Of a DNA stretch of 64,000 bases, positions 30,575 through 47,066 are shown piece after piece. Position 1 is the first letter of the stretch. Each line of letters starts with the position of its first letter. A program made the position numbers and the translations under genes. Source of the DNA: Nesterenkonia muleiensis (lineage in GTDB: Bacteria; Actinomycetota; Actinomycetes; Actinomycetales; Micrococcaceae); NCBI RefSeq assembly GCF_003600155.1, contig NZ_QWLD01000004.1, forward strand, positions 1 through 64,000, read 5' to 3'. Below the pieces are notes generated by a model that was given only the letters and a program-made list of their open reading frames with translations, searched no databases and was not told the origin of the DNA.

Positions 30575-30603
30575 GGGGACACCACTGGTGCAGCCTGGGG
30601 TGC

Positions 30604-31260: not shown

Positions 31261-31437
31261 CGTCTCTCTCCTTCGAGTGGGGACTTGCGCTGATGGCCGT
31301 ACCAGGTTCGGCTGACCTTCATGAAAAGATATCACCGTTCTGACAGCGTGCTCCGGGGCAAGACCGTGACATCACCGCGCGGCCCCACCCGGTGGGCAGC
31401 AGAAGGACGACGACCCGATCATGGAGAGTGAGCACCG

Positions 31438-32412
31438 ATGAACAGAGCCTCGCGTGTGTCTGCGGCAGCGTCAGTGGCTGCGCTGCTGGGGCTGGTCGGC
31501 TGCTCCTCGCACACGGCCGATCCGGCTGCCGGAACGGATTCACCAATCATCGAGAACTGCGGGTTCGACCTGCCCGCTGAGCCCACTCCGGAGCGGGTGG
31601 TGACCATCAAATCGACCCCGCTGGAGCTGATGCTCGCCCTTGACCTCTCTGAGCTGGTGGTCGGAGCGGCCTTCCTCGACGGGCCGCCGCCGGAGGAGCT
31701 TCTGCCCCGGGACTGGGAGGTGCCGGTGCTCGCCGAGGAACTGCCCGGACGCGAGGCGCTGCTGGCTGCCGAACCCGATGTGGTGTTCGCCGGCTGGGAG
31801 TCGAACCTCAGCGCCGACGGCATCGGCACCCGCGAGGACCTGAGCGATATGGGGCTGCGCAGCTACATCGCTCCGCCGGCCTGCGAATTCGGCCAGGAGG
31901 CCTCCCCGCTGAGGTTCGAGGACATCTTCGAGATGATCACCGAGGTCGGCGTGCTCTTCGCCGCCGAGGACCGGGCGGCAGCGCTGATCGATGAGCAGCG
32001 GACCGCCCTGGAGGGCATTGAGGAGCCTGAGAGCCCGCAGCAGCTGCTGTGGTACTCCTCAGGCGAAGAGACCCCCTTCGTGGGGGGAGGAACCGGGGCC
32101 CCGCAGATGATCATCGAGGCGGCAGGACACACCAACGTGGGCGCGGACCATCCGGAGACCTGGTTCAGCATGCCCTGGGAGTCCTTCGTCGACAGTGACC
32201 CGGACATCATCGTGCTGGTGGACGCTCCCTGGCACACTGCCGCCGATAAGCGGCAGCGGTTGGAGTCCCATGCTGCGGCCCAGCACATGACCGCGGTGCA
32301 GCAGGAGCAGTTCGTCGTCGTCGACTTCGCCACCACAGAGGCCGGGGTGCGCAATATCGAGGCCGTGCAGACTCTCGCTGAGTCGATCCACGTCCTGGTC
32401 GGCGATCAGTGA
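31438..32412 (+). CDS. putative F420-0 ABC transporter, substrate-binding lipoprotein
   Basis: A 324-residue lipoprotein with signal peptide and lipobox LVGCSS near residue 22, then a BtuF/FhuD-type two-lobed binding fold. It belongs to the three-gene cassette long proposed, from its distribution in F420-using actinobacteria that lack the biosynthetic genes, to import F420-0. The genes around it (npdG, cofD, cofC, cofE) strengthen the F420 link. The exact ligand, F420-0 or Fo, is not shown. Its stop overlaps the permease start by four bases. Confidence 0.85.
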   Translation: MNRASRVSAAASVAALLGLVGCSSHTADPAAGTDSPIIENCGFDLPAEPTPERVVTIKSTPLELMLALDLSELVVGAAFLDGPPPEELLPRDWEVPVLAEELPGREALLAAEPDVVFAGWESNLSADGIGTREDLSDMGLRSYIAPPACEFGQEASPLRFEDIFEMITEVGVLFAAEDRAAALIDEQRTALEGIEEPESPQQLLWYSSGEETPFVGGGTGAPQMIIEAAGHTNVGADHPETWFSMPWESFVDSDPDIIVLVDAPWHTAADKRQRLESHAAAQHMTAVQQEQFVVVDFATTEAGVRNIEAVQTLAESIHVLVGDQ

Positions 32413-33455
32413 GCAGCTTCGGCGCCGCCTGGCGGTTACCGCGTGGTGAGACCTCCGAGCGGGGACTGCCGGGGCTTGTGGTCATCACCGTGCTGGCGGT
32501 CGGCCTGGTCGTCTCGCTCATCAGCGCAGTCTCCCTGGGCGCAGTGGATCTGCCGATGAGGGGGATATGGCAGGCGCTGACCACCGATTCTGAGCACTGG
32601 CAGATGCAGGAGACCATCCTGGTCCAGGTGCGGATTCCGCGGGTGCTGACCGCTGCGCTGGTCGGCGCCGGCCTCGCGCTGGCCGGAGCCGTGCTGCAGC
32701 GCACCCTGCGTAACCCGCTGGCTGAGCCCTATCTGCTGGGCATCTCCTCCGGCGCCTCCCTGGGGGCCGTCTCGGTGATTCTGCTGGGGGTGGCGCTGTT
32801 CCTGCCGCTGGCGGCCTTCGCCGGGGGCATCCTGGCCTTGGCGGCCACGCTGGGTCTGGGCAGCGGGCCGGCAGGCATGACCACTGAGCGGGTCATCCTG
32901 GCCGGGGTGGCGGTGACGGCCTTCTTCAGCGCGCTGACCTCGCTGGTCATCTTCCGCTCGCCGGACAGCGACGGATACCGGCAGGTGCTGCACTGGCTGC
33001 TGGGATCACTGGCCAGCTCCACCTGGCAGACTGTGACCATTGCAGGCATCACCGTCCTGATCTTCGGGGGTCTGCTGCTGGCCAGCGCCCGCCTGTTGGG
33101 GCTGTTCCACCTCAGCGACGCCGAGATCGAGGCGCTGGGCATCAACACCCGGCGAGCACGTGGGACCGTGCTGGTGTTCGCCGCGCTGCTGGCCGCTGGA
33201 ATGGTCTCAGTCTCCGGCGCCATCGGCTTCGTGGGCCTGATCGTCCCGCATGTGGCCGGTGCCCTGGTCAAAGGTTCAGAGACGAAGCGGCTGATCGCCT
33301 CGCTGCTGATCGGGGCCCTGCTGCTGATCTGGGCCGATACTTTCTCCAGGACCGTGCTGCTGCCCGAAGAGCTGCCGGTGGGCATCACCACCGCCATCTT
33401 AGGAGCCACCGCCTTCGCAGTGATCATGATTCGCCGGCGGAGGGTCAGCCTATGA
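32409..33455 (+). CDS. putative F420-0 ABC transporter, permease
   Basis: A 348-residue FecCD-family permease with about nine to ten membrane segments. Family motifs include RIPRVLTAALVGAGLALAGAVLQ, RNPLAEPYLLGISSGASLGA and FVGLIVPH. It overlaps both the lipoprotein and ATPase genes by four bases, forming a tight operon. The family is shared with siderophore and cobalamin importers; the F420 assignment rests on the cassette and its neighbours. Confidence 0.87.
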   Translation: MSSFGAAWRLPRGETSERGLPGLVVITVLAVGLVVSLISAVSLGAVDLPMRGIWQALTTDSEHWQMQETILVQVRIPRVLTAALVGAGLALAGAVLQRTLRNPLAEPYLLGISSGASLGAVSVILLGVALFLPLAAFAGGILALAATLGLGSGPAGMTTERVILAGVAVTAFFSALTSLVIFRSPDSDGYRQVLHWLLGSLASSTWQTVTIAGITVLIFGGLLLASARLLGLFHLSDAEIEALGINTRRARGTVLVFAALLAAGMVSVSGAIGFVGLIVPHVAGALVKGSETKRLIASLLIGALLLIWADTFSRTVLLPEELPVGITTAILGATAFAVIMIRRRRVSL

Positions 33456-34243
33456 CGCTGACGGTGACACCGCTGCAACTGAGGCGCAGCCGGGGCTTCA
33501 GCCTCAACAGCCCTGCGATGGACCTTCGGCAGGGCGAGATTCTCAGTGTTCTGGGACCCAACGGGGCCGGCAAGAGTACCTTCCTCCAGCTGCTGGCCGG
33601 ACAGCTGAAGCCAGATCAGGGCAGTGTGATGTGGGAGGAACAGAGCCGGGCCGCACTGGGTCGCAGAGCCTGGGCGAAGCATGTGGCCTTCGTGTCCCAG
33701 GAGGCCAGCGCGCCGCCGGCGCTGCGTCTGGGCCAGTATGTGCGGCTGGGGCGGATTCCCTTCCGCGGGCTCTTCCAGCCCTTCACCGCCGAGGATGACA
33801 CTGCGGTGGCCTCCGCCCTCGATCTCTGCGGCCTGACCGACTACGCAGACGCGTGGATGGAGCAGCTCTCAGGCGGCCAGCGCCAACGTGGACGCATCGC
33901 GCGCGCCCTGGCTCAGGACCCCGGCGTGCTGCTGCTGGATGAGCCGACCAACCACCTTGACCTGGCGGTGATGCGCAATACCGCACATCTGCTGGAGGAC
34001 TTGGCCCGTTCCGGAGTCGCACTGGTGATCAGCGTCCACGATCTCGACTTCGCGGCGGTGCTCTCCGACCGGGCAGCGATCCTCCACCAGGGCCAGGTCC
34101 AGGTGATCGGGCCCACCTCGCAGACACTGACCGCGGACACGATCCGCAGATACTGGGGCGTGGAGGTGACCAGCGTCCAGGACGGACAGAGACGGCGTCA
34201 CGTCCTGCGCTACGGACGTGAGCCAGGTGCCGGCGCAGGCTAG
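33452..34243 (+). CDS. putative F420-0 ABC transporter, ATP-binding protein
   Basis: A 263-residue FecE-type ATPase. Walker A is GPNGAGKST near residues 34-42, the signature is LSGGQRQRGRIARAL, and Walker B is VLLLDEPTNHLD. It is the third gene of the importer cassette and converges on cofC, whose stop lies 19 bases away. Confidence 0.9.
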   Translation: MTLTVTPLQLRRSRGFSLNSPAMDLRQGEILSVLGPNGAGKSTFLQLLAGQLKPDQGSVMWEEQSRAALGRRAWAKHVAFVSQEASAPPALRLGQYVRLGRIPFRGLFQPFTAEDDTAVASALDLCGLTDYADAWMEQLSGGQRQRGRIARALAQDPGVLLLDEPTNHLDLAVMRNTAHLLEDLARSGVALVISVHDLDFAAVLSDRAAILHQGQVQVIGPTSQTLTADTIRRYWGVEVTSVQDGQRRRHVLRYGREPGAGAG

Positions 34244-34261
34244 CTCAGCAACGCCTGGTCC

Positions 34262-34945
34262 TCACCGCTGCGAGGGGCTCACCGTACCGGCCCCGGGGCG
34301 CCGGCCGGTGTGCCGAAGATAACTGAGATAGTGCTCCGCCGTGTCCAGATCATGCCTCAGTCCGCTCTGCTGCGGAAGCTGAATCTCGGTGAAGCCGGAC
34401 TCGGCATGCCGTGCAGCGGAGTCGGGGCCGAAAGCCGCTCGGCGAGGACTCCCGGGCAACAGCGCGATCACAGTGCTGCCACGCCCTGAGCAGTCAGGGA
34501 CGAAAGCATCCTTGCCCAGCCTCTCCACCTCACCAAGGAGCCTGTCGACCTCTGCGGCGCCGAGATACGGCAGATCGGCGTGGATGACCAGTAGCGGTGA
34601 CATCCCGTCCTGAGCCCGGATATGGCACACGGCCTCGGCGACGGCCTCATTGAGGCCACCCACCGGGGACTGCACAAGCGTCTCCACCTGATCCTCGCGG
34701 TGCCTGCCCGCCAGCTCTTCCGAGAGGTCAGCGTCTGAGACCACCAGTATGCGCCCCACAGCGCCGCTGCGCCCCAGCTGGTGCAGCACCGCGGAGGAGA
34801 CGTCACGCATCAGGGTCTCGACCACCTCGTCGGACAGGTGAGTGCGCAGCCGGGACTTCGCTGTGGCGAAGTTGCGGAGCGGGACAATCGCCACCCAGCT
34901 GCCCGGGGCACCGGCCACCAAGCGGTCACTGGCTGCGTGCACCAT
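34262..34945 (-). CDS. cofC: 2-phospho-L-lactate guanylyltransferase (CofC)
   Basis: CofC activates 2-phospholactate (or PEP) with GTP for CofD. The 227-residue protein has the nucleotidyltransferase start WVAIVPLRNFATAKSRL near residues 15-31, then VGRILVVSDAD and the metal-binding VIHADLPYL. ATG 34945 lies inside the end of cofE, a 20-base overlap that indicates translational coupling. The pair cofE-cofC is transcribed away from the pyrimidine cluster. Confidence 0.9.
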   Translation of the reverse strand: MVHAASDRLVAGAPGSWVAIVPLRNFATAKSRLRTHLSDEVVETLMRDVSSAVLHQLGRSGAVGRILVVSDADLSEELAGRHREDQVETLVQSPVGGLNEAVAEAVCHIRAQDGMSPLLVIHADLPYLGAAEVDRLLGEVERLGKDAFVPDCSGRGSTVIALLPGSPRRAAFGPDSAARHAESGFTEIQLPQQSGLRHDLDTAEHYLSYLRHTGRRPGAGTVSPSQR

Positions 34946-35699
34946 CGGCGAACCCCTGACGGTAGGCTTCTTCGGATCCGAGGCGGAAGAGGTCGGTGTC
35001 GGCCTCGCGGAGGATCTCCCGCGCTGAGCGCGGGGTCTGACGGTCGACGTAGTGCCCCAGCCCGCGCAGCACCGCCACCGGGACACCGGAGGCCTTGCCC
35101 TTGACCAGGTCCGCGGCCGCGGCGATCTCATCAGCGATGCACCGCAGGGTGACCGAGAGCGGCTTGCCATCAGTGTCCGTCCCGCCCCGGGCGTCGTCCA
35201 GCGGTGTGATTCCCGCACAGCCGATGGCGATGTCGGTCTGCCCGTGACGCCACGGCCGGCCGACCGTGTCAGTGATCACCACCCCGATATCCGCCCCGGT
35301 CTGGGCATGAACCTCCCGCACCAGCTGCCGGGCCGAAGCGTCGGGGTCCTCCGGCAGCAGCAGAATCCGGTCGCCGGGGACGTTGCTGGCGTCAATTCCG
35401 GCACCAGCGGCCACAATGCCCAGCCTGTTCTCCACGATCAGCGGCTGACCGGTCCCAGGTGCGTGCGCGACCACCCGCACGGTTTCCTGACGCAGTGCCT
35501 CTTCCCGCTCAGCAGCCGGCAGAAAACGGCCTTCGACTTTGGAGACGGCCTTGCTGGTCACCGCCAGAACATCGCCGTCCCGCAGGGGAGCATCCGCGGT
35601 GGCATCCAGAATCTCCTGCCACAGGCAGTGGGCTTCGGTGAGCTCCGGGATGCCCAGCACAGCGGTGATGGACAGCTGAATCGGGAAGGACTGGGGCAC
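34926..35699 (-). CDS. cofE: F420-0:gamma-glutamyl ligase (CofE)
   Basis: CofE adds gamma-linked glutamates to F420-0 with GTP. The 257-residue form has family motifs LRDGDVLAVTSKAVSKVEGR, NRLGIVAAGAGIDASNV, PEDPDASAR, VVITDTVGRPWRHGQTDIAIG and DEIAAAADLVKGKA. This is the ligase alone; the nitroreductase-like domain of FbiB is absent. The start is uncertain: GTG 35699 fits the family's N terminus (PQSFPIQLSITAV), but its ribosome-binding site is weak. It overlaps cofC. Confidence 0.92.
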   Translation of the reverse strand: MPQSFPIQLSITAVLGIPELTEAHCLWQEILDATADAPLRDGDVLAVTSKAVSKVEGRFLPAAEREEALRQETVRVVAHAPGTGQPLIVENRLGIVAAGAGIDASNVPGDRILLLPEDPDASARQLVREVHAQTGADIGVVITDTVGRPWRHGQTDIAIGCAGITPLDDARGGTDTDGKPLSVTLRCIADEIAAAADLVKGKASGVPVAVLRGLGHYVDRQTPRSAREILREADTDLFRLGSEEAYRQGFADGARSQ

Positions 35700-35821
35700 C
35701 AGCTGCTGACACCTGCTTCCTATGGCTGGACTGCGGGCGCTCCACACACCCGCGGGGCAAAAAGATAAACGTCACCATATCCGATGCTGCGGCACCGGTT
35801 GTCAGCCGCCAAGACTTTCTG

Positions 35822-35868
35822 TTGACACACTGGAAAAACAACACAGCATCACGTTGACACAGTGTAAG
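35822..35868. promoter_or_regulatory. promoter/operator region of the pyrimidine operon
   Basis: TTGACACACTGG (35822-35833) and the near-palindrome TTGACACAGTGTAAG (35854-35868) lie about 160 bases before the beta-ureidopropionase start. TTGACACTGTGTAAA at 45499 before mmsA is the same motif. TTGACA also matches a -35 box, so part of the conservation may be promoter sequence. The rest of 35700-36026 holds no gene. Confidence 0.55.
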
Positions 35869-36026
35869 CCTCGTGCCTCTGTCAACTCTGGGATGATCAG
35901 AACACCAGCGAGCCCCCGGCGTGGGTGCGGGCTGTGAGAAATACGGATTTAACAGTGCGCGATTGTCCGGTAACACCTCAGGCGTACAGTCTCGCGACGT
36001 AGGCACCAGCAGAAGGATGTGAGGGC

Positions 36027-36875
36027 ATGGCCACAGTGCGCGTGGCGCTCAGTCAAACCACATGGACAGGTGACAAAGAGTCCATGCTGGACAAGCACGA
36101 GGGGTTCGCCCGGGATGCCGCACAGCAGGGAGCCCAGGCGATCTGCTTCCAGGAGCTCTTCTACGGCCCCTACTTCGGCATCACCGAGGAAGCCAAGTAC
36201 TACCGTTTCGCTGAGCCTGCCGAGGGCCCCACCGTCACCCGCTTCGCCGCTCTGGCCGCGGAGCTGAACACGGTCATGATCCTGCCGATCTACGAAGAGG
36301 AGATGCCCGGGGTCTACTACAACACCGCGGTGGTCATCGACGCTGACGGCTCCCTCGCGGGCAAGTACCGCAAGATGCACATCCCGCACGTGGAGAGCTT
36401 CTATGAGAAGTTCTACTTCCGCCCGGGAAATCTGGGCTGGCCCGTCTTCGACACTGCCATCGGACGGATCGGGGTGACCATCTGCTACGACCGGCACTTC
36501 CCCGAAGGATGGCGGATGCTCGGGCTGGCCGGGGCGCAGATCGTCTTCAACCCCAATGCCTCCAAGCCTGGACTCTCCAACCGGCTGTGGGACCTCGAAC
36601 AGCCCACCGCCGCAGCGGCCAACGGTTACTTCGTGGTGGTCCCCAACCGGGTCGGCAGGGAGGACAATGAGTACGGCGATCTCGCGGTGGACTTCTATGG
36701 CACCAGCTACGTGGCCGACCCGCGTGGCAACTACGTGGGTGAGCGCGGCTCCTCAGAGCATGAGGAACTGCTGGTCCGGGATCTGGACATGGACCTCATC
36801 TACCAAGTACGCGACGACTGGCAGTTCTACCGGGACCGCCGGCCCGACGGCTACGGGGCCATCACCGCACCCTGA
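36027..36875 (+). CDS. nitrilase-superfamily hydrolase, probable beta-ureidopropionase
   Basis: The enzyme probably hydrolyses N-carbamoyl-beta-alanine to beta-alanine, CO2 and ammonia. The 282-residue protein has the nitrilase triad: Glu in ICFQELFYGPYF near residue 44, Lys in KYRKMHIPH near residue 115, and Cys in GVTICYDRHFPEG near residue 154. It is the first gene of the cluster, followed 44 bases later by dihydropyrimidinase, which supports this substrate. N-carbamoyl amino acid hydrolase is the alternative. Confidence 0.88.
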   Translation: MATVRVALSQTTWTGDKESMLDKHEGFARDAAQQGAQAICFQELFYGPYFGITEEAKYYRFAEPAEGPTVTRFAALAAELNTVMILPIYEEEMPGVYYNTAVVIDADGSLAGKYRKMHIPHVESFYEKFYFRPGNLGWPVFDTAIGRIGVTICYDRHFPEGWRMLGLAGAQIVFNPNASKPGLSNRLWDLEQPTAAAANGYFVVVPNRVGREDNEYGDLAVDFYGTSYVADPRGNYVGERGSSEHEELLVRDLDMDLIYQVRDDWQFYRDRRPDGYGAITAP

Positions 36876-36919: not shown

Positions 36920-38347
36920 ATGCCTGACCTGATCATCACCAACGGCACGGTCATCAACGCCACCGGGACCGTCGAAGCCGATGTGGTCGTCGAGGGCGAG
37001 AAGATCGTCGGCCTGCTCAGCCCCGGCACCGCCGAGACCGCCGAGCTGCAGCCGAAGAAGATCATCGACGCCGCCGGCAAATACCTCATTCCCGGCGGCA
37101 TCGACGCCCACACCCATATGCAGATGCCCTTCGGCGGCACCAACGCCTCGGACACCTTCGAGACCGGCACCCGGGCGGCAGCGTGGGGTGGAACCACCAC
37201 CATCGTGGATTTCGCCATCCAGAAGCACGGCGAACGGGTCCAGGACGGTCTGGAGACCTGGCACGGGCTGGCCGCCGGCAACTGTGCCATCGACTACAGC
37301 TTCCACCAGATCATCGGCGAGGTGAACAACGACTCCCTCAAGGCCATGGAGTCCCTAGCCGATGAGGGCGTGACCAGCTACAAGATGTTCATGGCCTACC
37401 CAGGGGTCTTCTACGCAGACGACGCACAGATCCTCCGCGCCATGCAGAAGGCCCGCGACCTGGGGCTGATGACCATGATGCACGCGGAGAACGGCCCCGC
37501 CATCGACGTACTGGCCGAACAGCTGGCAGCCCAGGGCAAGACCGCCCCCTACTACCACGGCATCGCCCGGGCCTGGCAGATGGAGGAGGAGGCCACCCAC
37601 CGGGCCATCATGCTGGCTGACCTCACCGACGCGCCGCTCTACATCGTGCATATGAGCGCCAAGCAGGCCGTCGAGCAGGTGGCCTGGGCCCGCGATAAGG
37701 CCAAGAACGTCTTCGGCGAAACCTGCCCGCAGTACCTCTACCTCTCCCTGGAGAAGCAACTGGGCGCCAGATCTGAGCAGTGGGGTGACTTCGAAGGCGC
37801 CAAGTGGGTCTGCTCCACCCCGCTGCGCAGCGAGGAAGAGGGCCACCTGGAGGCGATGTGGCAGGGGTTGAGGACCAATGACCTGCAGATGGTCTCCACC
37901 GACCACTGCCCGTTCTGCATGAAGGACCAGAAAGAGCTGGGCAAGGACGACTTCCGCGCCATTCCCAACGGCATCGGGTCGGTCGAACACCGGGTCGACC
38001 TGCTCTATCAGGGCGTGGTGGACGGACGGATCAGCCTGCCGCGATGGGTGGAGCTGACATCGACGACGCCGGCGCGGATGTTCGGCATGTACGGCACCAA
38101 AGGCGTCATCCAGCCCGGCGCCGATGCCGACATCGTGGTCTATGACCCCAACGGTCACACCTCCATCGGCGTGGACAAGACCCACCACATGAATATGGAC
38201 TACTCGGCATGGGAGGGCTTCGAGATCGACGGCCATGTCGATGTCACCATCTCCCGGGGCACTGTGCTGGTCGACAACGGTGAATATCTCGGCACCAAGG
38301 GCCACGGCCGGTTCGTCAAGCGCGGCCTCTCGCAGTACCTCGTCTGA
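36920..38347 (+). CDS. hydA: dihydropyrimidinase
   Basis: Dihydropyrimidinase opens the ring of 5,6-dihydrouracil or dihydrothymine. The 475-residue amidohydrolase has the metal-binding GGIDAHTHMQMPFGG near residues 58-72, the carboxylated Lys in SYKMFMAYPG near residue 155, the His in MMHAENG, and the Asp in MVSTDHCPF near residue 320. AGGAGG precedes the ATG. Neighbours on both sides (ureidopropionase and an LLM oxidoreductase) make a pyrimidine role more likely than a general hydantoinase one. Confidence 0.95.
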   Translation: MPDLIITNGTVINATGTVEADVVVEGEKIVGLLSPGTAETAELQPKKIIDAAGKYLIPGGIDAHTHMQMPFGGTNASDTFETGTRAAAWGGTTTIVDFAIQKHGERVQDGLETWHGLAAGNCAIDYSFHQIIGEVNNDSLKAMESLADEGVTSYKMFMAYPGVFYADDAQILRAMQKARDLGLMTMMHAENGPAIDVLAEQLAAQGKTAPYYHGIARAWQMEEEATHRAIMLADLTDAPLYIVHMSAKQAVEQVAWARDKAKNVFGETCPQYLYLSLEKQLGARSEQWGDFEGAKWVCSTPLRSEEEGHLEAMWQGLRTNDLQMVSTDHCPFCMKDQKELGKDDFRAIPNGIGSVEHRVDLLYQGVVDGRISLPRWVELTSTTPARMFGMYGTKGVIQPGADADIVVYDPNGHTSIGVDKTHHMNMDYSAWEGFEIDGHVDVTISRGTVLVDNGEYLGTKGHGRFVKRGLSQYLV

Positions 38348-38393: not shown

Positions 38394-39422
38394 ATGGAAT
38401 TCGGCGTCGTCGCCCAGACCAACCCTCCAGCCGCCCGAACGATCGCCCTGGCGCGCCGGGCGGAGGAGCTCTCGTTCGACAATTTCTGGACTTTTGACTC
38501 ACATATCCTGTGGCAGGAGCCCTATGTCATCTACTCCCAGATCCTCTCGCAGACCACCACGCTCACCGTAGGGCCGATGGTCACCAACCCGGCCACTCGG
38601 GACTGGACGGTGACCGCTTCGGTCTACGCGACTCTTAACGCCCACTTCGGCAATCGCACCGTGTGCGGCATCGGCCGAGGGGACTCCGCGGTGCGCGTCA
38701 AGGGTGATAAGCCGGTGAAGCTGCGGGAGTTCAAAGAATCCATCCAGGTGATCAAGGAGCTGGCCAACTCGCGTCCGGCGCAGATCAACGAGGCCAGTAT
38801 CCAGTTCCCCTGGAGCCGCGGCTCACAGCTGGAGATGTGGGTGGCGGCCTACGGGCCCAAAGCACTGCAGATCGCCGGAGAGGTCGGCGACGGTTTCATC
38901 CTGCAGTGCGGAGATGTGGACATCGCCGAGTGGATGATCGCCAGCGTGCGCACAGCGGCTGAGGAGGCCGGGCGCGACCCTGAGGCGATCAAGTTCTGTG
39001 TGGCTGCACCCTTCTACGTCACCGACGGAACTCAGGAGGACTACCATCACGCCATCGAGCAGTGCCGGTGGTTCGGCGGCATGGTGGGCAACCATGTGGC
39101 TGATATCGTCACCCGCTACGGCACTGACTCCGCTGTGCCCAAGGCGCTGACTGACTACATCGCCGGCCGGCAGGACTATGACTACAACCAGCACGGGCGC
39201 TCCGGCAACGATCATGTGGACTTCGTCCCCGACGAGATCGTCGACCGGTTCTGCATGATCGGTACGGCCGAGGAGCACATCGCCAAGCTGGAGCGGCTCA
39301 AGGCTCTGGGTATGACCCAGTTCGCAGGCTACCTCGGCCATGACAAGGAGGATGCGACGATGGCCAGCTACGGCCAGCAGATCATCCCCGCTCTGCAGGA
39401 CGAGATCCTGGCCCGGTCATGA
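38394..39422 (+). CDS. LLM-class F420-type oxidoreductase (TIGR03842-like)
   Basis: A 342-residue TIM-barrel protein of the luciferase-like monooxygenase superfamily, in the group named F420-dependent and related to methylene-tetrahydromethanopterin reductase (Mer). The start EFGVVAQTNPPAART and the segments NFWTFDSHILWQEPYV and GIGRGDSAVRVKG are characteristic. It lies between dihydropyrimidinase and an ABC importer in one operon, next to F420 biosynthesis genes. No PreT/PreA-type dehydrogenase is present, so it may reduce uracil or thymine with F420H2; this is inference. Homologues are recalled in bacteria without F420, so a flavin cofactor remains possible. Confidence 0.85.
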   Translation: MEFGVVAQTNPPAARTIALARRAEELSFDNFWTFDSHILWQEPYVIYSQILSQTTTLTVGPMVTNPATRDWTVTASVYATLNAHFGNRTVCGIGRGDSAVRVKGDKPVKLREFKESIQVIKELANSRPAQINEASIQFPWSRGSQLEMWVAAYGPKALQIAGEVGDGFILQCGDVDIAEWMIASVRTAAEEAGRDPEAIKFCVAAPFYVTDGTQEDYHHAIEQCRWFGGMVGNHVADIVTRYGTDSAVPKALTDYIAGRQDYDYNQHGRSGNDHVDFVPDEIVDRFCMIGTAEEHIAKLERLKALGMTQFAGYLGHDKEDATMASYGQQIIPALQDEILARS

Positions 39423-39432
39423 AAGCAGCCCT

Positions 39433-40350
39433 ATGACAGCAGCCCCGACCACCGTCAAGCTCAAGGACCGTTCCGGCAGAGCCGGCGCGCTGCGCGTCTG
39501 GGTCTGGGGAGCGGCGGGAATACTCGCCCTGATGGTGCTCTGGGAGGTCTACAAATTCCTGGGCCCGGCCGATGGTGTGGTCGTCTTCGGCACCCGCGTG
39601 CTGCCGCGCACCTCTGACCTGGCCATGCCGCATCTGTGGGAGATGTTCGCCCGGCTGGCCGAGGCAGAGACCGGAGCGCCCACTGCCGATCCGCTCTGGT
39701 ACGCGGTGGGTGCGGCCGCACTGTTCAGCCTGGGCATAGCGGCCGCAGGCTGGGTGGTGGGCGTGGTGGTCGGCGTCGCCTTGGCCCTGGTGATGCTGCG
39801 CTGGAAGTGGGCCGAATGGGGTCTGCTGCCCTGGATCGTGCTGTCCCAGACGGTGCCGATCATCGCCTTCGCCCCGGTGGTGCGCAACTGGGGCATCCAG
39901 CTGGACCCGCCCTTCTTCGCTTGGCAGGACTGGATGTCGGTGGCGCTGATCGCCTCCTGGCTGGCGTTCTTCCCGGTTGCGGTGGGCGTGCTCAAAGGCC
40001 TGCAGTCCCCGGAGACTATGCACACCGAACTGATGCGCAGCTATGCGGTGGGCTGGTGGACCACTCTGCTGCGTCTGCGCACCCCCGCCGCGGTACCGTT
40101 CATGCTGGCGGCGATGCGGCTTGCGGCGGCCAATGCGGTGATCGGTGCGGTCGTCGCCGAAGTCTCCACCGGGCTTCGCGGCGGGATCGGCCGGATCCTC
40201 ATCCAGTGGGCCGGCCAGGCCTCCAACGACCCCGCCAAGGCCTGGGGTCCAGTCTTCGGGGCAGTGGCCCTGGGGCTGGTCGCAGCCGGCTCCGTGGCCC
40301 TGCTGGGCATGACACTGCGGAAATACCGACGACAGGAGGAGGGCTCATGA
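39433..40350 (+). CDS. ABC transporter permease, NMT1/SsuC type
   Basis: A 305-residue permease with about six to seven membrane segments and the BPD inner-membrane domain (residues 110-290, with AVGWWTTLLRLRTPAAVPFMLAAMR as the EAA-like coupling loop). It starts 10 bases after the LLM gene and overlaps the ATPase gene by four bases. With a second permease, an ATPase and an NMT1-type binding protein it forms an importer. Context suggests pyrimidines or their breakdown products as cargo. Confidence 0.88.
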   Translation: MTAAPTTVKLKDRSGRAGALRVWVWGAAGILALMVLWEVYKFLGPADGVVVFGTRVLPRTSDLAMPHLWEMFARLAEAETGAPTADPLWYAVGAAALFSLGIAAAGWVVGVVVGVALALVMLRWKWAEWGLLPWIVLSQTVPIIAFAPVVRNWGIQLDPPFFAWQDWMSVALIASWLAFFPVAVGVLKGLQSPETMHTELMRSYAVGWWTTLLRLRTPAAVPFMLAAMRLAAANAVIGAVVAEVSTGLRGGIGRILIQWAGQASNDPAKAWGPVFGAVALGLVAAGSVALLGMTLRKYRRQEEGS

Positions 40351-41246
40351 CTGACCCAACACCGAACGGTGAATCTTCTGCTTCAGGTGCGAAGGCCGCG
40401 GAAACGCGGCCGAGAGCCGAGCGGGGTTCCCCCGCCGGCGGGACCAACACTGCCGCGGTGGATGCCGCACACGTGGACAAGGTCTTCGCCACCTCATCAG
40501 GGGAGGTCCACGCTCTCTCCGATGTAAGCCTGACGGTTGCCCCCGGGGAATTCGTCTCCCTGATCGGGCCCTCCGGCTGCGGCAAATCCACGCTGATGCG
40601 GCTGATCGCTGACTTGGACTCTCCGAGCACCGGTGAGCTCAGCGTCTTCGGCAAGACCCCGGACCGGGCCCGCCGTGACCAGGACTACGGCATCGCCTTC
40701 CAGAAGGCTGGGCTGCTGCCATGGCGCACGGTGGCTGACAACGTGGGTCTTCCGCTGCAGCTGCACAAGGCCCCGGCCTCCCAGCGCAAGGCCAGAGTCG
40801 CCGAGCTGCTGGAGATGGTGGGCCTCTCCGACTTCTCCGGCCACTACCCTGATCAGCTCTCCGGGGGTATGCAGCAACGAGTGGCCATCGCCCGCGCACT
40901 GGCGGAGAAGCCCCGTATGCTCCTGATGGATGAGCCGTTCGGAGCTCTGGACGAGATGACCCGCGAACGCATGCAGACCGAACTGCTGCGCATCTGTGCC
41001 GAGACCGGGGCCGCGGTGGTCTTCGTGACCCATTCGATCCCGGAGGCGGTCTACCTCTCCGACCGGGTGGTGGTGATGTCCCCCAGGCCGGGCCGGATCG
41101 CCGAGGTCATCGATATGGAGCTCGCCGACTCCTCCCAGCGCAGCGACGCGCTGCGTGAGGACAGCAGCTACTTCGACATGATCACTGCCGTGCGCGAATC
41201 TCTGCACGGCGGCAGCTCCGCCTCTCGGGGAGTGGAGACCCGCTGA
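40347..41246 (+). CDS. ABC transporter ATP-binding protein (SsuB/ThiZ type)
   Basis: A 299-residue ATPase. Walker A is GPSGCGKST near residue 75, the signature is LSGGMQQRVAIARAL, and Walker B is MLLMDEPFGALDE. The first 37 residues are atypical: they are encoded largely by a 69-bp repeat (40382-40450) inserted in frame, giving an Ala/Arg/Gly-rich stretch (SGAKAAETRPRAERGSPAGG) before the normal start of the domain near HVDKVF. It overlaps both permease genes. It powers the importer of this cluster. Confidence 0.9.
   Translation: MTDPTPNGESSASGAKAAETRPRAERGSPAGGTNTAAVDAAHVDKVFATSSGEVHALSDVSLTVAPGEFVSLIGPSGCGKSTLMRLIADLDSPSTGELSVFGKTPDRARRDQDYGIAFQKAGLLPWRTVADNVGLPLQLHKAPASQRKARVAELLEMVGLSDFSGHYPDQLSGGMQQRVAIARALAEKPRMLLMDEPFGALDEMTRERMQTELLRICAETGAAVVFVTHSIPEAVYLSDRVVVMSPRPGRIAEVIDMELADSSQRSDALREDSSYFDMITAVRESLHGGSSASRGVETR
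40382..40450. repeat. two-hairpin 69-bp repeat inside the ABC ATPase gene
   Basis: This copy matches 21416-21484 base for base in length and layout: hairpin 1 (GGCCGCG, loop GAAA, CGCGGCC; 40394-40411), the identical spacer GAGAGCCGA, and hairpin 2 (GCGGGG, TTC, CCCCGC; 40421-40435). Four of seven pairs in hairpin 1 and one of six in hairpin 2 are changed on both sides. Its length is a multiple of three and keeps the ATPase frame open. Confidence 0.75.
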
Positions 41247-42034
41247 TGAGCGCAGAAACGCTGAGCCCCCGGCAGAGGACCATTGGGCGGGTGGGCGCGC
41301 CGGTCCTGGTCGGTGTGCTCGGGCTGCTGCTGTGGCAGCTGATGGTCGGCGTCTTCGGTGTCTCCAGCTATCTGCTGCCGGCGCCCACGGCCATCTTCGC
41401 TGAGGCGAACCGGGCCTCAGCACATATCTGGAACGGTGCGCTGATCACCGGCTGGAACGCTCTTGCGGGCCTGATCGTGGGCACTCTCCTGGGTGTGGTC
41501 TTCGCCGCCTGCGCGGCAGCGTCGAAATCGGTCAATGCGATGGTCAACCCCCTGGTCGCCGCGCTGGCGGTGATCCCCATCGTGGCGCTGGCCCCGATCC
41601 TGAACACCATGTTCGGCTCCACCCAGTTCCCCCGGCAGGCCATCGCCGGCCTGGCCAGCTTCGTTCCGGTCTTCGTCTCCACGCTGCGCGGGCTGCGGCA
41701 GGTCGACCCGGAGCTGCGCGACCTCATGCACACCTACGCGGTGTCCCCGGTGCAGACCTTCTTCACTGTGACCCTGCCCACCGCGGTGCCCTACGTCTTC
41801 ACCGGCGTCAGGCTGGCCTCCTCGCTGGCGGTGATCTCTGCGCTGGTGGCCGAGTACTTCGGCGGGCCTCGCGGCGGACTGGGCGGCATTATCTCCACCG
41901 CCGCGGCGTCGAGCCAGTACCCGCGCGCCTGGGCCTATGTGCTGGCCTCCATCGCCGTGGGCCTGGTGTTCTATCTGACCACCATGCTGCTGGAATGGCT
42001 GGCCAACCGCTCCCGCTCAACGGCCTCCGGCTGA
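41246..42034 (+). CDS. ABC transporter permease, second subunit
   Basis: A 262-residue BPD-type permease with about six membrane segments and the coupling-loop region YAVSPVQTFFTVTLPTAVPYVFTGVRLA. It begins on the last base of the ATPase gene. Two different permeases with one ATPase imply a heterodimeric channel. Confidence 0.88.
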   Translation: MSAETLSPRQRTIGRVGAPVLVGVLGLLLWQLMVGVFGVSSYLLPAPTAIFAEANRASAHIWNGALITGWNALAGLIVGTLLGVVFAACAAASKSVNAMVNPLVAALAVIPIVALAPILNTMFGSTQFPRQAIAGLASFVPVFVSTLRGLRQVDPELRDLMHTYAVSPVQTFFTVTLPTAVPYVFTGVRLASSLAVISALVAEYFGGPRGGLGGIISTAAASSQYPRAWAYVLASIAVGLVFYLTTMLLEWLANRSRSTASG

Positions 42035-42082: not shown

Positions 42083-43246
42083 ATGAAGCACTCGACAAAG
42101 CGGCATCCCACCCGCAGCGTGGCCCTGAGCACCCTTGCCGCAGGTGCGCTTGCGCTGACAGCGTGCGGAGGCGACAACGGAGATGATGGGGCCGGAGGTG
42201 ACGACGGCGAGCTGCAGCAGATCAGCCTGCAGCTGCAGTGGCTGCCCCAGGGACAGTTCGCCGGCTACTTCGCCGCCGCCGAGCAGGGCTTCTTCGAGGA
42301 GGAGGGCCTGGAGGTGGAGATCATCGAATCCGGCGGTGACATCGTCCCCCAGGACGCGCTGGCCAACGGTGAGGTGGACTACGCCATCGCCTGGGTTCCC
42401 AAAGTCCTGGAGACCATGGAGGCCACCGGCGCTGAACTGGTGAACATCGCCCAGGTCTTCCAGCGCTCGGGAACCCTGCAGGTGGCCTGGGCAGACGATG
42501 ACATCGAAGGTGTCGATGACTTCGAGGGTCAGCGGATCGGATCCTGGGGCTTCGGGAATGAGTGGGAGATCTTCGCCGCCATGGCCGAGTACGGCCTGGA
42601 CTCCTCGACGGTGGACATCATCACCCAGGACTTCAACATGAACGCCTTCCTGGAAGGCGATATTGACGCCGCCCAGGCTATGACCTACAACGAGTACGCC
42701 CAGCTGCTGCAGGCGGAGAACCCGGACACCGGTGAGCTCTACACCGAAGATGACTTCACCGTCATCGAATACGAGGAGACCGGCGGTGCCATGCTGCAGG
42801 ATGCCATCTGGGCAGACGGTGAGCGGCTGGCCGAGGATGCTGACTACGAGGAGACCACCGTGGCCTTCCTGCGTGCGGTGGCCCGCGGCTGGGCCTGGGC
42901 CGCTGAGAACCCCGAGGAGGCGGCAGAGACCGTCCTCGACGCCGGCTCCGGCTGGGACTTCGACCATGAGCTGTGGATGGTCAACGAGACCAACCGGCTC
43001 ATCTGGCCCGCCCCGGACGGTTTCGCAATGATCGATGAAGCAGCATGGGGAGACACGGTGGCTGCCGCGCTGGAGGCGGTCAACGAGCAGGGCGATTCAC
43101 CGATTACCGAGGAACCCAGCGATGAGGCCTGGTCCAATGAGTACATTGAAGCCGCGCTCGCCGACTTGGAGGATGAGGACCTGGATCTGACCGGCGAGAG
43201 CTGGGCGCCGATCGAGGTTTCCTTCGAGAGCGACGGCGGCTCCTAG
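42083..43246 (+). CDS. ABC transporter substrate-binding lipoprotein, NMT1/THI5-like
   Basis: A 387-residue lipoprotein with signal peptide and lipobox LTACGG near residue 30. The mature part opens ISLQLQWLPQGQFAGYFAAAEQGFFEEEGLEVE, the NMT1/THI5-like start found in ThiY and RibY, which bind pyrimidine or flavin-like ligands. The protein is strongly acidic, perhaps an adaptation to salt. It is the last gene of the operon starting at 36027. A pyrimidine-type cargo fits both the family and the operon, but is not proven. Confidence 0.88.
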   Translation: MKHSTKRHPTRSVALSTLAAGALALTACGGDNGDDGAGGDDGELQQISLQLQWLPQGQFAGYFAAAEQGFFEEEGLEVEIIESGGDIVPQDALANGEVDYAIAWVPKVLETMEATGAELVNIAQVFQRSGTLQVAWADDDIEGVDDFEGQRIGSWGFGNEWEIFAAMAEYGLDSSTVDIITQDFNMNAFLEGDIDAAQAMTYNEYAQLLQAENPDTGELYTEDDFTVIEYEETGGAMLQDAIWADGERLAEDADYEETTVAFLRAVARGWAWAAENPEEAAETVLDAGSGWDFDHELWMVNETNRLIWPAPDGFAMIDEAAWGDTVAAALEAVNEQGDSPITEEPSDEAWSNEYIEAALADLEDEDLDLTGESWAPIEVSFESDGGS

Positions 43247-43459
43247 CGATGGCGGGTGCCGGGATCGGTGGCCGGGGCCGGGTTCGCTTGATGGCCCGGT
43301 GCTAGTCACCTCCCCCGCCACCACTTCTGCCTGCCGCATCCGACGCCTGTTGTCCTATCACACGACTATGAGTGTATGAAGGCGCAACAGCTGTATGACG
43401 GTGCGGAACAGAAGGAGGCAGAGCTCATTCGCCTACGCCCATGATCAGTATTGGAGGAT

Positions 43460-45502
43460 ATGAAGCACTACGACGTCGTCGAGATGAGCATCGCCGAGAT
43501 GCTCGCCGCGCTGGACTCCGGGGAGGTGACCAGCACGGATCTGGTCTGTGCCTACCTGAACCGGATCGGCTACTACGACCGCACCGGATGGTGTCTGAAC
43601 GCGGTGCCGATCATCAACCCTGGTTGTCTGGCTGAGGCCGAGGAGTCGGATGCGCGACGCCGCCGGGGTGAGCCGGTGCGCCCGCTGGAGGGTGTTCCGT
43701 TCACGGTTAAAGACAGCTACATGGTCGAGGGTCTGACCGTGGCGTCGGGATCGGTGGCGCTGAAAGATCTGATAGCCGGTCACGACGCCGCCACGGTCCA
43801 GCTGCTGCGCAATGCCGGTGCGGTGCTCATCGGCAAGACCAACATGCCGCCGATGGCTGCCGGCGGCATCCAGCCCGGTGTGTACGACTACGCCCGCAGC
43901 CCCTATCGCCCGGACTACCTCACCGCAGCCTACGGCTCCGGGTCCTCGAGCGGGTCAGGCACCGGCACCACCGCCAGCTTCAGCGCCTTCGGGATGGGGG
44001 AGGAGACCGTCTCCTCGGGCCGCTCGCCGGCGTCGAACAACTCACTGGTGGCCTATACGCCCTCCCGCGGACTCATCTCCATCCGGGGAAACTGGCCGCT
44101 GCGGCCCAGCTGCGACGTCGTCGTACCCCACACCCGGACGGTGGAGGACCTGCTGCATCTGCTGGATGTGCTGGTGGTGGAGGATCCGGAGACCGAGGGG
44201 GACTTCTGGCGCCAGCAGAATGCGGTCACGCTGCCGGCTCCAGCCTCGGTGCGGCCGGAGACGTTTCTCAGGGAGCGGCCGCGCCGGCTCGAGGGTGTCC
44301 GCCTGGGGGTGCCGAAGATGTATGTGGGCGAGGATCCGCACGCAGCCGTGCCTCCGGTGTGCCGGGAGACGGTCGCGATGCTGTGGGCCGCCGCCGAACG
44401 TCAGTTCGAAGCACTCGGCGCTGAGATTCTCCACGTGGACTTCCCGGTGGTCTCCCACTATGAGGAGGACCGGCCGGAGGCGGAGTCATTGGTGGAGCGG
44501 GGGATGATGCCCGCCAACTGGCGAACTCTGGAGTCCGGGGCGGTGGCAGCCTTTGTCCTGGATCAGTTCCTGCGGCTCAACGGTGATCCGAACCTCAGCA
44601 GCTGGGCAGACATCGACGGTGATGCGGTCTTCCCCGCCGAGGACGCACCGGTCCATGTATGGGTGGAGCGTGCCCGCGGCGGCTTCGACTGGCAGCGTAT
44701 GGCGGAGTACGTCAAGGTCGGGCTGCCGGAGAGCCTTGACGAGTTCGACGGCCTGGACCGGCTGCTCACCGGATTGGAGGAGGCCCGTACCCGGGACTTC
44801 GAGGACTGGATGGCCGATCAGGGCCTGGACGCAGTGATCTTCCCGGCGGCAGGGGATGTGGGGCGCGATGACCTGTTCAGCCGGCCGGAGTCGATGGCTG
44901 AGGCCACCCGCAACGGTGTGGTCTACTCCAACGGAAACCGGGTGATCCGGCACCTGGGCATCCCCACGGTGACGGTGCCGATGGGCACGATGGCCGACCT
45001 GCAGATGCCGGTGGGGCTGACCATCGCCGGGGCCGCCTATGCTGATGACCGCCTGCTGGACTACGCCTGGGCCTATGAGCAGGCCGCTGCGGCCCGGGTG
45101 GCCCCGTATCTGACGCCCACCCTTCCCAGCAACCGGATTCCGGCTGAGGTCACCGGCCGAGCTGAGGCTGCTGCTGAAAGCAGCGGCTCTGCGGGTTTCA
45201 CGCTGAGCTGCGAAGTGTCCGCGGAGGTCTCCGAGACCCATTGGATCATCACGGCCACCGTTGAGACCTCTGTGGCGGAGGCGGAGGTCCAGGCCTGGGC
45301 AGACGGTCATATCCTGCTGCCGGTCAAGGGCCGGTCCGGGGCCTTCTCCGGGAAAGTCTCCACCTCGCGCAAGCGGCTGGATGACCAGATCATGGTGCTG
45401 GTCAAGGCTGTTGTCGGCGGACGCTCCGCTGCTGTGCTGAGGTTCATCCCCCTGCCGCAGCCGCGGCAGTCCAGGAGCGCACCGTCCCCGAGAGCTGCTT
45501 GA
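43460..45502 (+). CDS. amidase-signature enzyme with C-terminal extension
   Basis: The 680-residue protein has the amidase signature triad: Lys in PFTVKDSYM near residue 90, the first Ser in GSGSSSGSGTG near residue 165, and the nucleophile region GEETVSSGRSPASNN near residue 185. The family's usual length is 450-600 residues; a beta-rich extension of about 90 residues (from SCEVSAEVSETHW) follows residue 580. The start is uncertain: GGAGG is only two bases before ATG 43460; the TTG at 43451 and ATG 43484 are alternatives. It lies between importer and mmsA; substrate unknown, perhaps a ureido or amide intermediate. Confidence 0.8.
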   Translation: MKHYDVVEMSIAEMLAALDSGEVTSTDLVCAYLNRIGYYDRTGWCLNAVPIINPGCLAEAEESDARRRRGEPVRPLEGVPFTVKDSYMVEGLTVASGSVALKDLIAGHDAATVQLLRNAGAVLIGKTNMPPMAAGGIQPGVYDYARSPYRPDYLTAAYGSGSSSGSGTGTTASFSAFGMGEETVSSGRSPASNNSLVAYTPSRGLISIRGNWPLRPSCDVVVPHTRTVEDLLHLLDVLVVEDPETEGDFWRQQNAVTLPAPASVRPETFLRERPRRLEGVRLGVPKMYVGEDPHAAVPPVCRETVAMLWAAAERQFEALGAEILHVDFPVVSHYEEDRPEAESLVERGMMPANWRTLESGAVAAFVLDQFLRLNGDPNLSSWADIDGDAVFPAEDAPVHVWVERARGGFDWQRMAEYVKVGLPESLDEFDGLDRLLTGLEEARTRDFEDWMADQGLDAVIFPAAGDVGRDDLFSRPESMAEATRNGVVYSNGNRVIRHLGIPTVTVPMGTMADLQMPVGLTIAGAAYADDRLLDYAWAYEQAAAARVAPYLTPTLPSNRIPAEVTGRAEAAAESSGSAGFTLSCEVSAEVSETHWIITATVETSVAEAEVQAWADGHILLPVKGRSGAFSGKVSTSRKRLDDQIMVLVKAVVGGRSAAVLRFIPLPQPRQSRSAPSPRAA

Positions 45503-45581: not shown

Positions 45582-47066
45582 ATGGCTACAACATCCCATC
45601 TGATCAACGGTCGCAACGTCTTCCCCTCCGGTGTCCGGACCACCGAGGTCGAGAATCCCGCAAACGGCGAGGTGGTCGCCGAGATCCCGCTGGCCTCCCC
45701 CGCCGAGGTGGACCAGGCCGTCGCCGCAGCGAAGGATGCCTTCCAGTCCTGGCGGAGCACCTCGCTGTCCCGCAGGGTCCAGATCCTCTTCCGCTACCGA
45801 GAACTGCTCAACGCCCGGAAGGACGAGCTGGCTGCCATCATTTCCCGGGAGCACGGCAAAGTGCACTCCGATGCCCTGGGCGAGGTGACTCGCGGACTCG
45901 AGGTGGTCGAATTCGCCTGCGGAATCCCGCATCTGCTGAAGGGTTCGTTCACTCAGAACGCCTCCACCAGTGTTGACGTCCACTCCGCCCGGCATCCGTT
46001 GGGCCCGGTGGCGGTGATTACTCCTTTCAACTTCCCGGCCATGGTGCCGATGTGGTTCACCCCGATCGCGGTGGCCACCGGCAATACCGTGGTCATCAAA
46101 CCCAGTGAGAAGGACCCCAGTGCGGTGAACTGGCAGGTTGAGCTGTGGAAGGAAGCTGGACTGCCTGACGGTGTGGTCAACGTCCTGCACGGTGACAAAG
46201 TGGCCGTCGACGGGCTGCTGAACCATCCCGACATCCAGTCGGTCTCCTTTGTGGGCTCCACTCCGGTGGCCAAGTACGTCTATGAGACCGGCACGGCTGC
46301 CGGCAAGCGCGTCCAGGCCCTGGGCGGGGCCAAGAACCACATGGTGGTGCTGCCCGATGCCAACCTGGACCGGGCGGCTGACAGTGCCGTCTCCGCCGGA
46401 TATGGCTCCGCCGGCGAGCGCTGCATGGCCATCTCAGTCACCGTGGCTGTCGGTGACATCGCCGATGAACTGGTCGAGAAGATCGCCGAGCGCACCCGCG
46501 GACTGAGCCTCAAGGGCGAGGATCCGGATATGGGTCCGCTGATCTCGAAGGCGCACCGTGACAAGGTGCGCGGTTACGTTGACGGTGCTGAGGCCGAAGG
46601 GGCCTCCTTGGTGGTGGACGGGCGCACCTGGGAAGAGTCTGATCAGCCCGGGGCTGCTTTCCTGGGGCCGACACTGCTGGACAACGTCACTCCCGAGATG
46701 AAGGCCTACCAGGAGGAGATCTTCGGCCCGGTGCTCTGTGTGGTGCGCGTAGAGACCTACCAGGAGGCGCTGGAGCTGATCAATGCCAACCCCTACGGCA
46801 ACGGCACCGCCATCTTCACCCGCGACGGTGCTGCCGCCCGGCGCTTCGAAATGGATGTCCAGGTGGGTATGATCGGGGTCAACGTGCCGATCCCGGTGCC
46901 GATGGCCTATTACTCATTCGGCGGTTGGAAGAACTCCCTGTTCGGCGACAGCCACGCCCACGGCACCGAAGGTGTGCACTTCTTCACCCGGGGCAAGGCC
47001 GTCACCACCCGGTGGGGCGACCCGGCAGAGGGCGGACTGGAGCTCGGCTTCCCCCAGAACGACTGA
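45582..47066 (+). CDS. mmsA: CoA-acylating methylmalonate/malonate-semialdehyde dehydrogenase
   Basis: MmsA oxidises malonate semialdehyde (from uracil) to acetyl-CoA and methylmalonate semialdehyde (from thymine) to propionyl-CoA. The 494-residue aldehyde dehydrogenase has the catalytic Cys in GSAGERCMAIS near residue 285 and the family's GAKNHMVVLPDAN in place of the usual GGKxP motif with Glu. The last part reads NVPIPVPMAYYSFGGWKNS, typical of MmsA. It begins a two-gene unit with the aminotransferase that makes its substrate. Confidence 0.94.
   Translation: MATTSHLINGRNVFPSGVRTTEVENPANGEVVAEIPLASPAEVDQAVAAAKDAFQSWRSTSLSRRVQILFRYRELLNARKDELAAIISREHGKVHSDALGEVTRGLEVVEFACGIPHLLKGSFTQNASTSVDVHSARHPLGPVAVITPFNFPAMVPMWFTPIAVATGNTVVIKPSEKDPSAVNWQVELWKEAGLPDGVVNVLHGDKVAVDGLLNHPDIQSVSFVGSTPVAKYVYETGTAAGKRVQALGGAKNHMVVLPDANLDRAADSAVSAGYGSAGERCMAISVTVAVGDIADELVEKIAERTRGLSLKGEDPDMGPLISKAHRDKVRGYVDGAEAEGASLVVDGRTWEESDQPGAAFLGPTLLDNVTPEMKAYQEEIFGPVLCVVRVETYQEALELINANPYGNGTAIFTRDGAAARRFEMDVQVGMIGVNVPIPVPMAYYSFGGWKNSLFGDSHAHGTEGVHFFTRGKAVTTRWGDPAEGGLELGFPQND

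Follow-up and report, generated by a model that had tools for sequence, protein, structure and literature searches.

In the genome of Nesterenkonia muleiensis, the LLM-class oxidoreductase gene at positions 38394-39422 of the 64,000-nucleotide stretch analyzed here (the window) very probably encodes an F420H2-dependent uracil/thymine reductase, which would be a non-homologous replacement of dihydropyrimidine dehydrogenase (PydA, PreTA). The first-pass annotation of this DNA had proposed such a replacement, and several largely independent lines of genomic evidence now favor it. In the proposed route, NpdG would recharge F420 to F420H2 with NADPH, for which a neighboring PntAB transhydrogenase is the likely source at a small number of loci, those of Leisingera and Halomonas among them; with F420H2 as the donor, the TIM-barrel LLM protein would then deliver a hydride to C6 of uracil or thymine, and an acid residue would protonate C5, a mechanism modeled by analogy on that of dihydropyrimidine dehydrogenase. 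The resulting dihydrouracil or dihydrothymine would be opened and trimmed by HydA and ureidopropionase, and an aminotransferase and MmsA would carry the beta-amino acid to acyl-CoA.

PydA/PreTA (EC 1.3.1.1/1.3.1.2, including the ferredoxin-dependent PydAc) catalyze what is proposed to be the same reaction at the same place in the pathway, beside hydA and ureidopropionase, as described in the accessible part of PMC7332683. However, PydA/PreTA are FMN/FAD/Fe-S enzymes, whereas the LLM protein has another fold and another predicted cofactor, being a single 342-aa chain that would use F420 and has no FAD or Fe-S domains.

The pyrimidine gene set of the window and its first step

The LLM gene (plus strand, intact from its ATG to its TGA) is the third in a row of genes separated by gaps of 44, 46, 10, -4, -1 and 48 bp and running from a CN-hydrolase to a substrate-binding protein, which on account of this spacing apparently form one operon. 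The CN-hydrolase (36027-36875, plus strand; Pfam CN_hydrolase) is a probable beta-ureidopropionase, its best solved matches being Drosophila CG3027, an N-carbamoylputrescine amidohydrolase and beta-ureidopropionases; it passed no NCBIfam equivalog cut-off, and its best model, N-carbamoylputrescine amidase, was far below threshold (245 of 410 bits). The second gene (36920-38347, plus strand) encodes a dihydropyrimidinase (hydA; TIGR02033, 545 bits against a cut-off of 393), with the dihydropyrimidinase 3sfw as its best solved match. Downstream of the LLM gene, on the same strand, lie the components of a proposed pyrimidine importer of the ABC type: a first permease (39433-40350), assigned by weak matches to SaoP/SsuC-type permeases and by operon spacing; an ATPase (40347-41246) and a second permease (41246-42034), both assigned by profile matches; and an NMT1/THI5-like substrate-binding protein (42083-43246; PF09084), whose four solved matches are an ABC binding protein with unnamed ligand, the methylpyrimidine-binding protein 3ix1 and two THI5 proteins, including 4h65.

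A second unit on the plus strand starts with a 683-aa amidase (43451-45502; PRK06565, 696 bits against 575), which has no assigned pyrimidine role and had gone unmentioned in the first-pass annotation. It is followed by the (methyl)malonate-semialdehyde dehydrogenase MmsA (45582-47066; TIGR01722, 687 bits against 448.5) and a class-III omega-aminotransferase (47110-48501; PF00202; PRK06062, 737 bits), whose nearest solved protein is a taurine:2-oxoglutarate aminotransferase and which would act on beta-alanine or beta-aminoisobutyrate. The dihydropyrimidinase, ureidopropionase, aminotransferase and semialdehyde dehydrogenase of the reductive pyrimidine pathway are therefore present together in the window, the ureidopropionase identity and the aminotransferase substrate being probable assignments drawn from similarity and not from an equivalog cut-off. 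Apart from the amidase, the composition of both units had been described from the letters and open reading frames, and the profile matches, solved-protein matches and gaps confirmed it.

Reduction of uracil or thymine had been named as the one step without a gene, in agreement with a search of the whole genome (98.2% complete, 57 contigs), where neither PreA (best score 29.5 bits, 335 needed) nor RutA (TIGR03612; best 120.9 of 498.3 bits) was detected over cut-off. Candidates for the later steps are present in both units, and in the first operon no oxidoreductase other than the LLM protein is available for the initial step. The protein itself does not belong to the PreA-type dihydropyrimidine dehydrogenases, which consist of an FMN barrel and an Fe-S domain; its Pfam match is Bac_luciferase.

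Regarding regulation, the region that separates cofE from the divergently oriented pyrimidine operon (35748-36026, unstranded) contains a 15-nt repeat, GTTGACACACTGGAA/GTTGACACAGTGTAA, with a partial inverted copy; the direct repeat GTTGACACACTGGAA, within 35821-35886 and with a spacing of 32 bp, is operator-like. A common operator upstream of the operon in relatives was considered and rejected, as just short, partly shared words were found. A PucR-type gene (28224-29516, minus strand; PF07905) may encode a regulator, and a PucR-like gene with 31% identity to it is also found in cluster L055 of genome G023.

Family membership and relation to F420 enzymes

The assignment of the LLM protein to the F420 group, already made in the first-pass annotation, holds: by the curated cut-off and over the full model length it is a member of NCBIfam TIGR03842 (F420_CPS_4043; 547 bits against 295.45, model positions 1-329 of 329), and the only one over cut-off in this genome. 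NCBIfam names the family 'LLM class F420-dependent oxidoreductase', without a function, and an account of the function of a TIGR03842 enzyme was not found among the papers listed from the open-licence full-text literature, although subscription papers may hold one.

The six best PDB sequence matches of the protein are F420-dependent Mer (top score 183 bits), and the 11 best comprise Mer, hydroxymycolic acid dehydrogenase, Adf and Fgd, all identified as F420 enzymes by the names of the molecules or the titles of the entries. An AlphaFold2 model (pLDDT 92.7) gave a concordant picture, with the Mer-F420 complex 1z69 as the best fold match, F420-dependent Mer in all of the eight best, F420 enzymes at ranks 1-14 and a luciferase only at rank 15. 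Thus, by sequence and by fold, the protein is closer to the F420-dependent LLM reductases (LLHT) than to the FMN members. Its closest solved relative, the F420-dependent methylene-H4MPT reductase Mer, is likewise an F420H2-dependent reductase, but it acts on a different substrate, and Glu6, the residue mutated in 8qq8 according to the title of that entry, is not kept. Alignment of TIGR03842 members, which reports on conservation only, identified residues that are invariant in 60 of 60 members and absent from the Mer rows (W40, R95, S98, W140, Y153, W226, F227, N233, H234, Y262, Y264 and H267), and these are candidates for the pyrimidine site.

It is unlikely that the protein is instead an FMN-dependent reductase or a RutA-like ring-opening monooxygenase with F420 genes nearby by coincidence. 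The fold is indeed common to FMN monooxygenases, and searches of the window genome for an FO synthase gave no match (see below), but the best matches, both in sequence and in fold, are F420 enzymes. RutA belongs to the same LLM superfamily and acts on uracil, for which reason it had been cited as a sign that the fold can bind pyrimidines. This argument proved weak, as the LLM protein is absent among the 12 matches of the RutA model in the genome (E<=0.001) and its closest structures are those of F420-dependent Mer, and on the same grounds we discarded a RutA-like role. In addition, RutA opens the ring with FMN in an O2-dependent manner, and such a route would have no need of HydA.

Open frames of 817-868 aa had also suggested a hydA-LLM gene fusion. 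Ten loci were inspected, four of which (L013, L019, L022, L041) carried such a long frame, and no second enzyme was present in the LLM frame, so the fusion was dismissed.

Distribution and gene neighborhoods

The co-occurrence of the LLM gene with the two gene sets was analyzed in 396 Actinomycetota genomes. TIGR03842 was found over cut-off in 79 of them, CofD in 214 at E<=1e-20 (202 over cut-off), dihydropyrimidinase in 114, and PreA in only two, both lacking the LLM gene; in one of these (G208), PreA adjoins hydA and a Zn-hydrolase. Dihydropyrimidinase was present in 72 of the 79 genomes with the LLM gene compared to 42 of the 317 without it (p 2e-40), and CofD in 73 of 79 compared to 141 of 317 (Fisher p 5e-16), p-values that overstate the association because related genomes are not independent. 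In 58 of the 79 genomes hydA lies within 8 kb of the LLM gene on the same contig. No hydA was shown in seven of the 79, and in 12 of the 72 genomes having both genes hydA lies more than 15 kb from the LLM gene or on another contig, which contig breaks explain in some cases but not in G237. Regarding the six genomes with the LLM gene in which CofD was not found, five are 81-91% complete and split into 190 to 580 contigs, and in G119, which consists of 220 contigs, the LLM gene is partial; two of the six nevertheless have CofH over cut-off.

Named genomes were scanned as well and yielded at least 592 relatives, of which the best 80, led by a Leisingera query, were selected; consequently, this set leans to Proteobacteria and is not random. 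Proteins from the window, from Leisingera and from Paracoccus served as tblastn queries to search the neighborhoods (E 1e-8, 35% coverage), with some loci ending at contig ends. Among these best 80 of at least 592 loci, a dihydropyrimidinase was detected in 37, a ureidopropionase-type gene in 44 and either of them in 48, whereas any cof or npdG gene was detected in 53 and a pyrimidine or F420 gene in 72; the complete set of cofG, cofH, cofD, cofC, cofE and npdG was present in 32, npdG was directly upstream of the LLM gene in 42, and the 32 loci without a pyrimidine gene nearby were made up of 24 with F420 genes only and 8 with neither kind. Largely independently of the Actinomycetota pattern, the LLM gene of many Alpha- and Gammaproteobacteria comes after cofG-cofH-cofD-cofC-cofE-npdG, and hydA, a gene of the ureidopropionase type or one for a RutR-like regulator is often close by. 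On Leisingera plasmids, cofG-H-D-C-E-npdG-LLM faces pntA-pntB-aminotransferase-Zn-hydrolase-hydA-NCS1 permease, and in Paracoccus denitrificans (locus L070) the F420 genes and the LLM gene are beside hydA and a ureidopropionase-type hydrolase gene. Among the loci inspected, 14 of the 17 from Chloroflexota include hydA, with the gene order CN-hydrolase-LLM-hydA in 11 of the 14, and one of the 17 has an F420 gene; the two from Acidobacteriota have no hydA. In a tree of 60 members, rooted by midpoint only, hydA linkage appears on both sides of the deepest split, and the full set of F420 genes is confined to loci of Proteobacteria. Linkage to hydA and linkage to F420 genes are two largely separate lines, and the direct precedence of npdG in 42 of the best 80 of at least 592 loci further argues against coincidental F420 neighbors of a flavin enzyme.

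In favor of a flavin enzyme, CofD was not found in 8 of 40 named genomes with the LLM gene: six Devosia-type genomes (five from Devosia or Pelagibacterium and one from another member of the Hyphomicrobiales), Demequina, and the draft Chloroflexi MAG G431. However, the LLM gene is immediately preceded by cofE and an F420-0-type importer in all six Devosia-type genomes, in which neither CofD nor CofH was detected, the order being cofE, importer, TIGR03842 (loci L107, L108, L110, L113, L115 and L130; about 4.9-11.0 kb). The L108 importer was recognized by family models (score/cut-off 431/392 for the binding protein, 436.6/437.35 for the permease and 337/372 for the ATPase), and the other five importers have 55-78% identity to it in tblastn. 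An fgd gene is found upstream of the LLM gene in five of the six loci (in L108, TIGR03554, 510 bits against 420), and no hydA was seen near the LLM gene in the six. As Demequina also has the importer and CofE in its LLM locus, seven of the eight exceptions are predicted F420 salvagers, and G431 is the one case left unexplained. The flavin-only role that the first-pass annotation had kept as a caveat is weakened by these findings, and the CofD-less genomes were rejected as support for it.

The same annotation had proposed to examine whether LLM homologues accompany hydA and F420 genes but not preTA. The first part is borne out in the 396 Actinomycetota genomes; strict exclusivity fails, as PreA was over cut-off in 5 of the 40 named genomes with the LLM gene and RutA in 1 of them. 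In three Rhodobacterales genomes, two of Leisingera and one of Limimaricola, the PreA locus consists of PreA, a RutR-like regulator, a Zn-hydrolase, hydA and an NMT1-type importer homologous to that of the window, including homologues of the binding protein 42083-43246 adjoining the PreA-hydA cluster, so that PreA has in these genomes the same partners that the LLM gene has elsewhere, a gene swap. In the PreA loci of Devosia psychrophila and Geminicoccaceae, hydA was not seen in the stretch inspected.

Relatives of the Leisingera RutR-like regulator are present in 29 of the best 80 of at least 592 loci. This protein has RutR as its best solved match, but it is called RutR-like only because it scores below both RutR cut-offs (TIGR03613 and PRK15008, 198 of 368 and 175 of 230 bits, respectively). 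By a by-eye count on an alignment, it retains W77, W167 and Q171 of RutR but not K95, all of which we take to be uracil-binding residues.

These data bear on whether the cluster might reduce another cyclic ureide or pyrimidine (hydantoin, thiamin pyrimidine or yanthine) instead of uracil or thymine, to which we give little credence. HydA-type enzymes do accept hydantoins, and the binding protein 42083-43246 resembles a methylpyrimidine-binding protein. Moreover, a putative F420-dependent LLM enzyme of Chloroflexota has been proposed as a yanthine reductase, replacing the YgfK/UacX reductase in reductive uric acid degradation (PMC12507026, as far as its accessible text describes); compared by that description, it differs from our protein in belonging to a purine pathway, and it is a proposal only. 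However, a ureidopropionase-type hydrolase, an omega-aminotransferase and MmsA jointly suit uracil and thymine, and both the presence of the same importer family beside PreA-hydA and the RutR-like regulator point in the same direction. Finally, it is very unlikely that the LLM protein runs in reverse, as an Fgd-like F420-reducing dehydrogenase feeding F420H2 to another uracil reductase: its relatives Fgd and Adf do reduce F420, but npdG beside the LLM gene already makes F420H2, the Devosia-type loci have an upstream fgd gene of their own (L108, with relatives in five of the six loci), and among the genes searched for no other candidate reductase recurs.

With respect to uracil reduction by a putative F420/FMN oxidoreductase, SSGG-03002/NpsU of mureidomycin biosynthesis is supported genetically as reducing the C5-C6 bond of uracil (PMC10714638, in the part available). 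Compared by this description, it differs from the LLM protein in being an antibiotic-tailoring enzyme, and no in vitro activity was found for it in that source.

Cofactor supply and wider use of F420

The F420 genes reported in the first-pass annotation within 10 kb of the LLM gene are all on the minus strand at 29537-35747, within 9 kb of it: cofE, F420-0:L-glutamate ligase (34926-35747; TIGR01916, 226 bits against 180.65), a cofC-like guanylyltransferase gene (34262-34957; TIGR03552, 93.6 bits, under the cut-off of 105), npdG, NADPH:F420 reductase (30604-31335; TIGR01915, 198 bits against 149.8), and cofD (29537-30574; TIGR01819, 287 bits against 257.45). Beyond that earlier description, a FecBCD-type ABC importer related to putative F420-0 transporters, with a proposed role in FO/F420-0 uptake, is encoded on the plus strand (31438-34243), between the minus-strand cofE/cofC-like and npdG/cofD pairs. 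Its best models are TIGR03868, TIGR03869 and TIGR03873, all scoring below cut-off (347/392, 334/437 and 217/372 bits, respectively), and its proteins have 43, 44 and 38% identity to the Devosia importer.

No FO synthase (CofH/FbiC) was detected in the Nesterenkonia muleiensis genome with a Leisingera CofH query or the CofH model at E<=1e-15, although the same search recovered it in six other Actinomycetota (448-539 bits) and, with scores of about 250 bits, in two genomes from the order of the window organism, G316 and G343. Since an FO synthase is not recognizable and an F420-0-type importer is present, the organism may salvage deazaflavin by uptake of FO or F420-0, and as cofC and cofD are kept, import of FO would be the simpler reading. 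The LLM gene and CofD without a CofH match are also found in the relatives G225 (one contig) and G268 and in Cellulomonas phragmiteti (G434). In G225 and Cellulomonas phragmiteti the importer lies close to the cluster, and in the 20 kb inspected of G268 it was not seen. Two further genomes of the same order that lack the LLM gene (G062 and G085) have CofD, no CofH match and no importer within 20 kb around cofD, a pattern which implies either that FO salvage is wider than the LLM cluster or that the CofH model misses some FO synthases. Separately, in the Chloroflexi MAGs G426 and G428, CofD, cofE, cofC and npdG are grouped and an LLM-hydA cluster is present, with no CofH match at E<=1e-15, for which FO import or MAG gaps are possible explanations.

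If the LLM enzyme is indeed a pyrimidine reductase, a widespread family that NCBIfam names only by number would gain a function, and the missing first step of pyrimidine catabolism would be supplied in organisms without PydA. That the LLM gene is paired with hydA in many bacteria may be the reason why some of these produce or take up F420. It is conceivable, though we lean slightly against it, that F420-dependent pyrimidine reduction is a major and unrecognized use of F420, with Rhodobacterales, marine Gammaproteobacteria, Chloroflexota and many Actinomycetota making or importing the cofactor chiefly for uracil/thymine breakdown, and the window organism and Devosia depending on FO or F420-0 released by their neighbors, in which case pyrimidine use would be a cofactor cross-feeding trait. 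In its accessible sections, a 2021 review (PMC8498797) presents the reason for F420 in Proteobacteria and Chloroflexi as an unanswered question, and the F420 enzymes of non-actinobacterial bacteria as not studied by then; the proposed function would be a partial answer to that question.

The LLM gene accounts for only part of proteobacterial F420. Among the 50 of 62 plasmid records with CofH-like matches that were listed, ten of Leisingera, one of Paracoccus and one of Rhodococcus are also among the 13 plasmid records with the LLM gene, and those of Sinorhizobium, Sphingobium and Paraburkholderia are not. An accessory fbi (F420) operon and pntAB have been tied to nodulation competitiveness in Sinorhizobium meliloti strains (PMC8407117, in its accessible part), and as Sinorhizobium is absent from the plasmid LLM records, this operon probably represents another use of F420.

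Two further observations concern the F420-LLM clusters. Genes for pntAB, detected in 8 of the best 80 of at least 592 loci, were seen inside such clusters in L092, L093, L094, L096, L098, L103, L067 and L069 and on the Leisingera plasmids L044 and L170, which suggests a dedicated NADPH supply for NpdG. In addition, tandem TIGR03842-like genes adjoin cof genes in two loci where hydA was not seen in the vicinity, as two copies in L122 (10001-11904) and as three in L128 (3733-6873); the three copies in L128 imply that members of the family need not all have one substrate, and other substrates are possible for the tandem genes of both loci.
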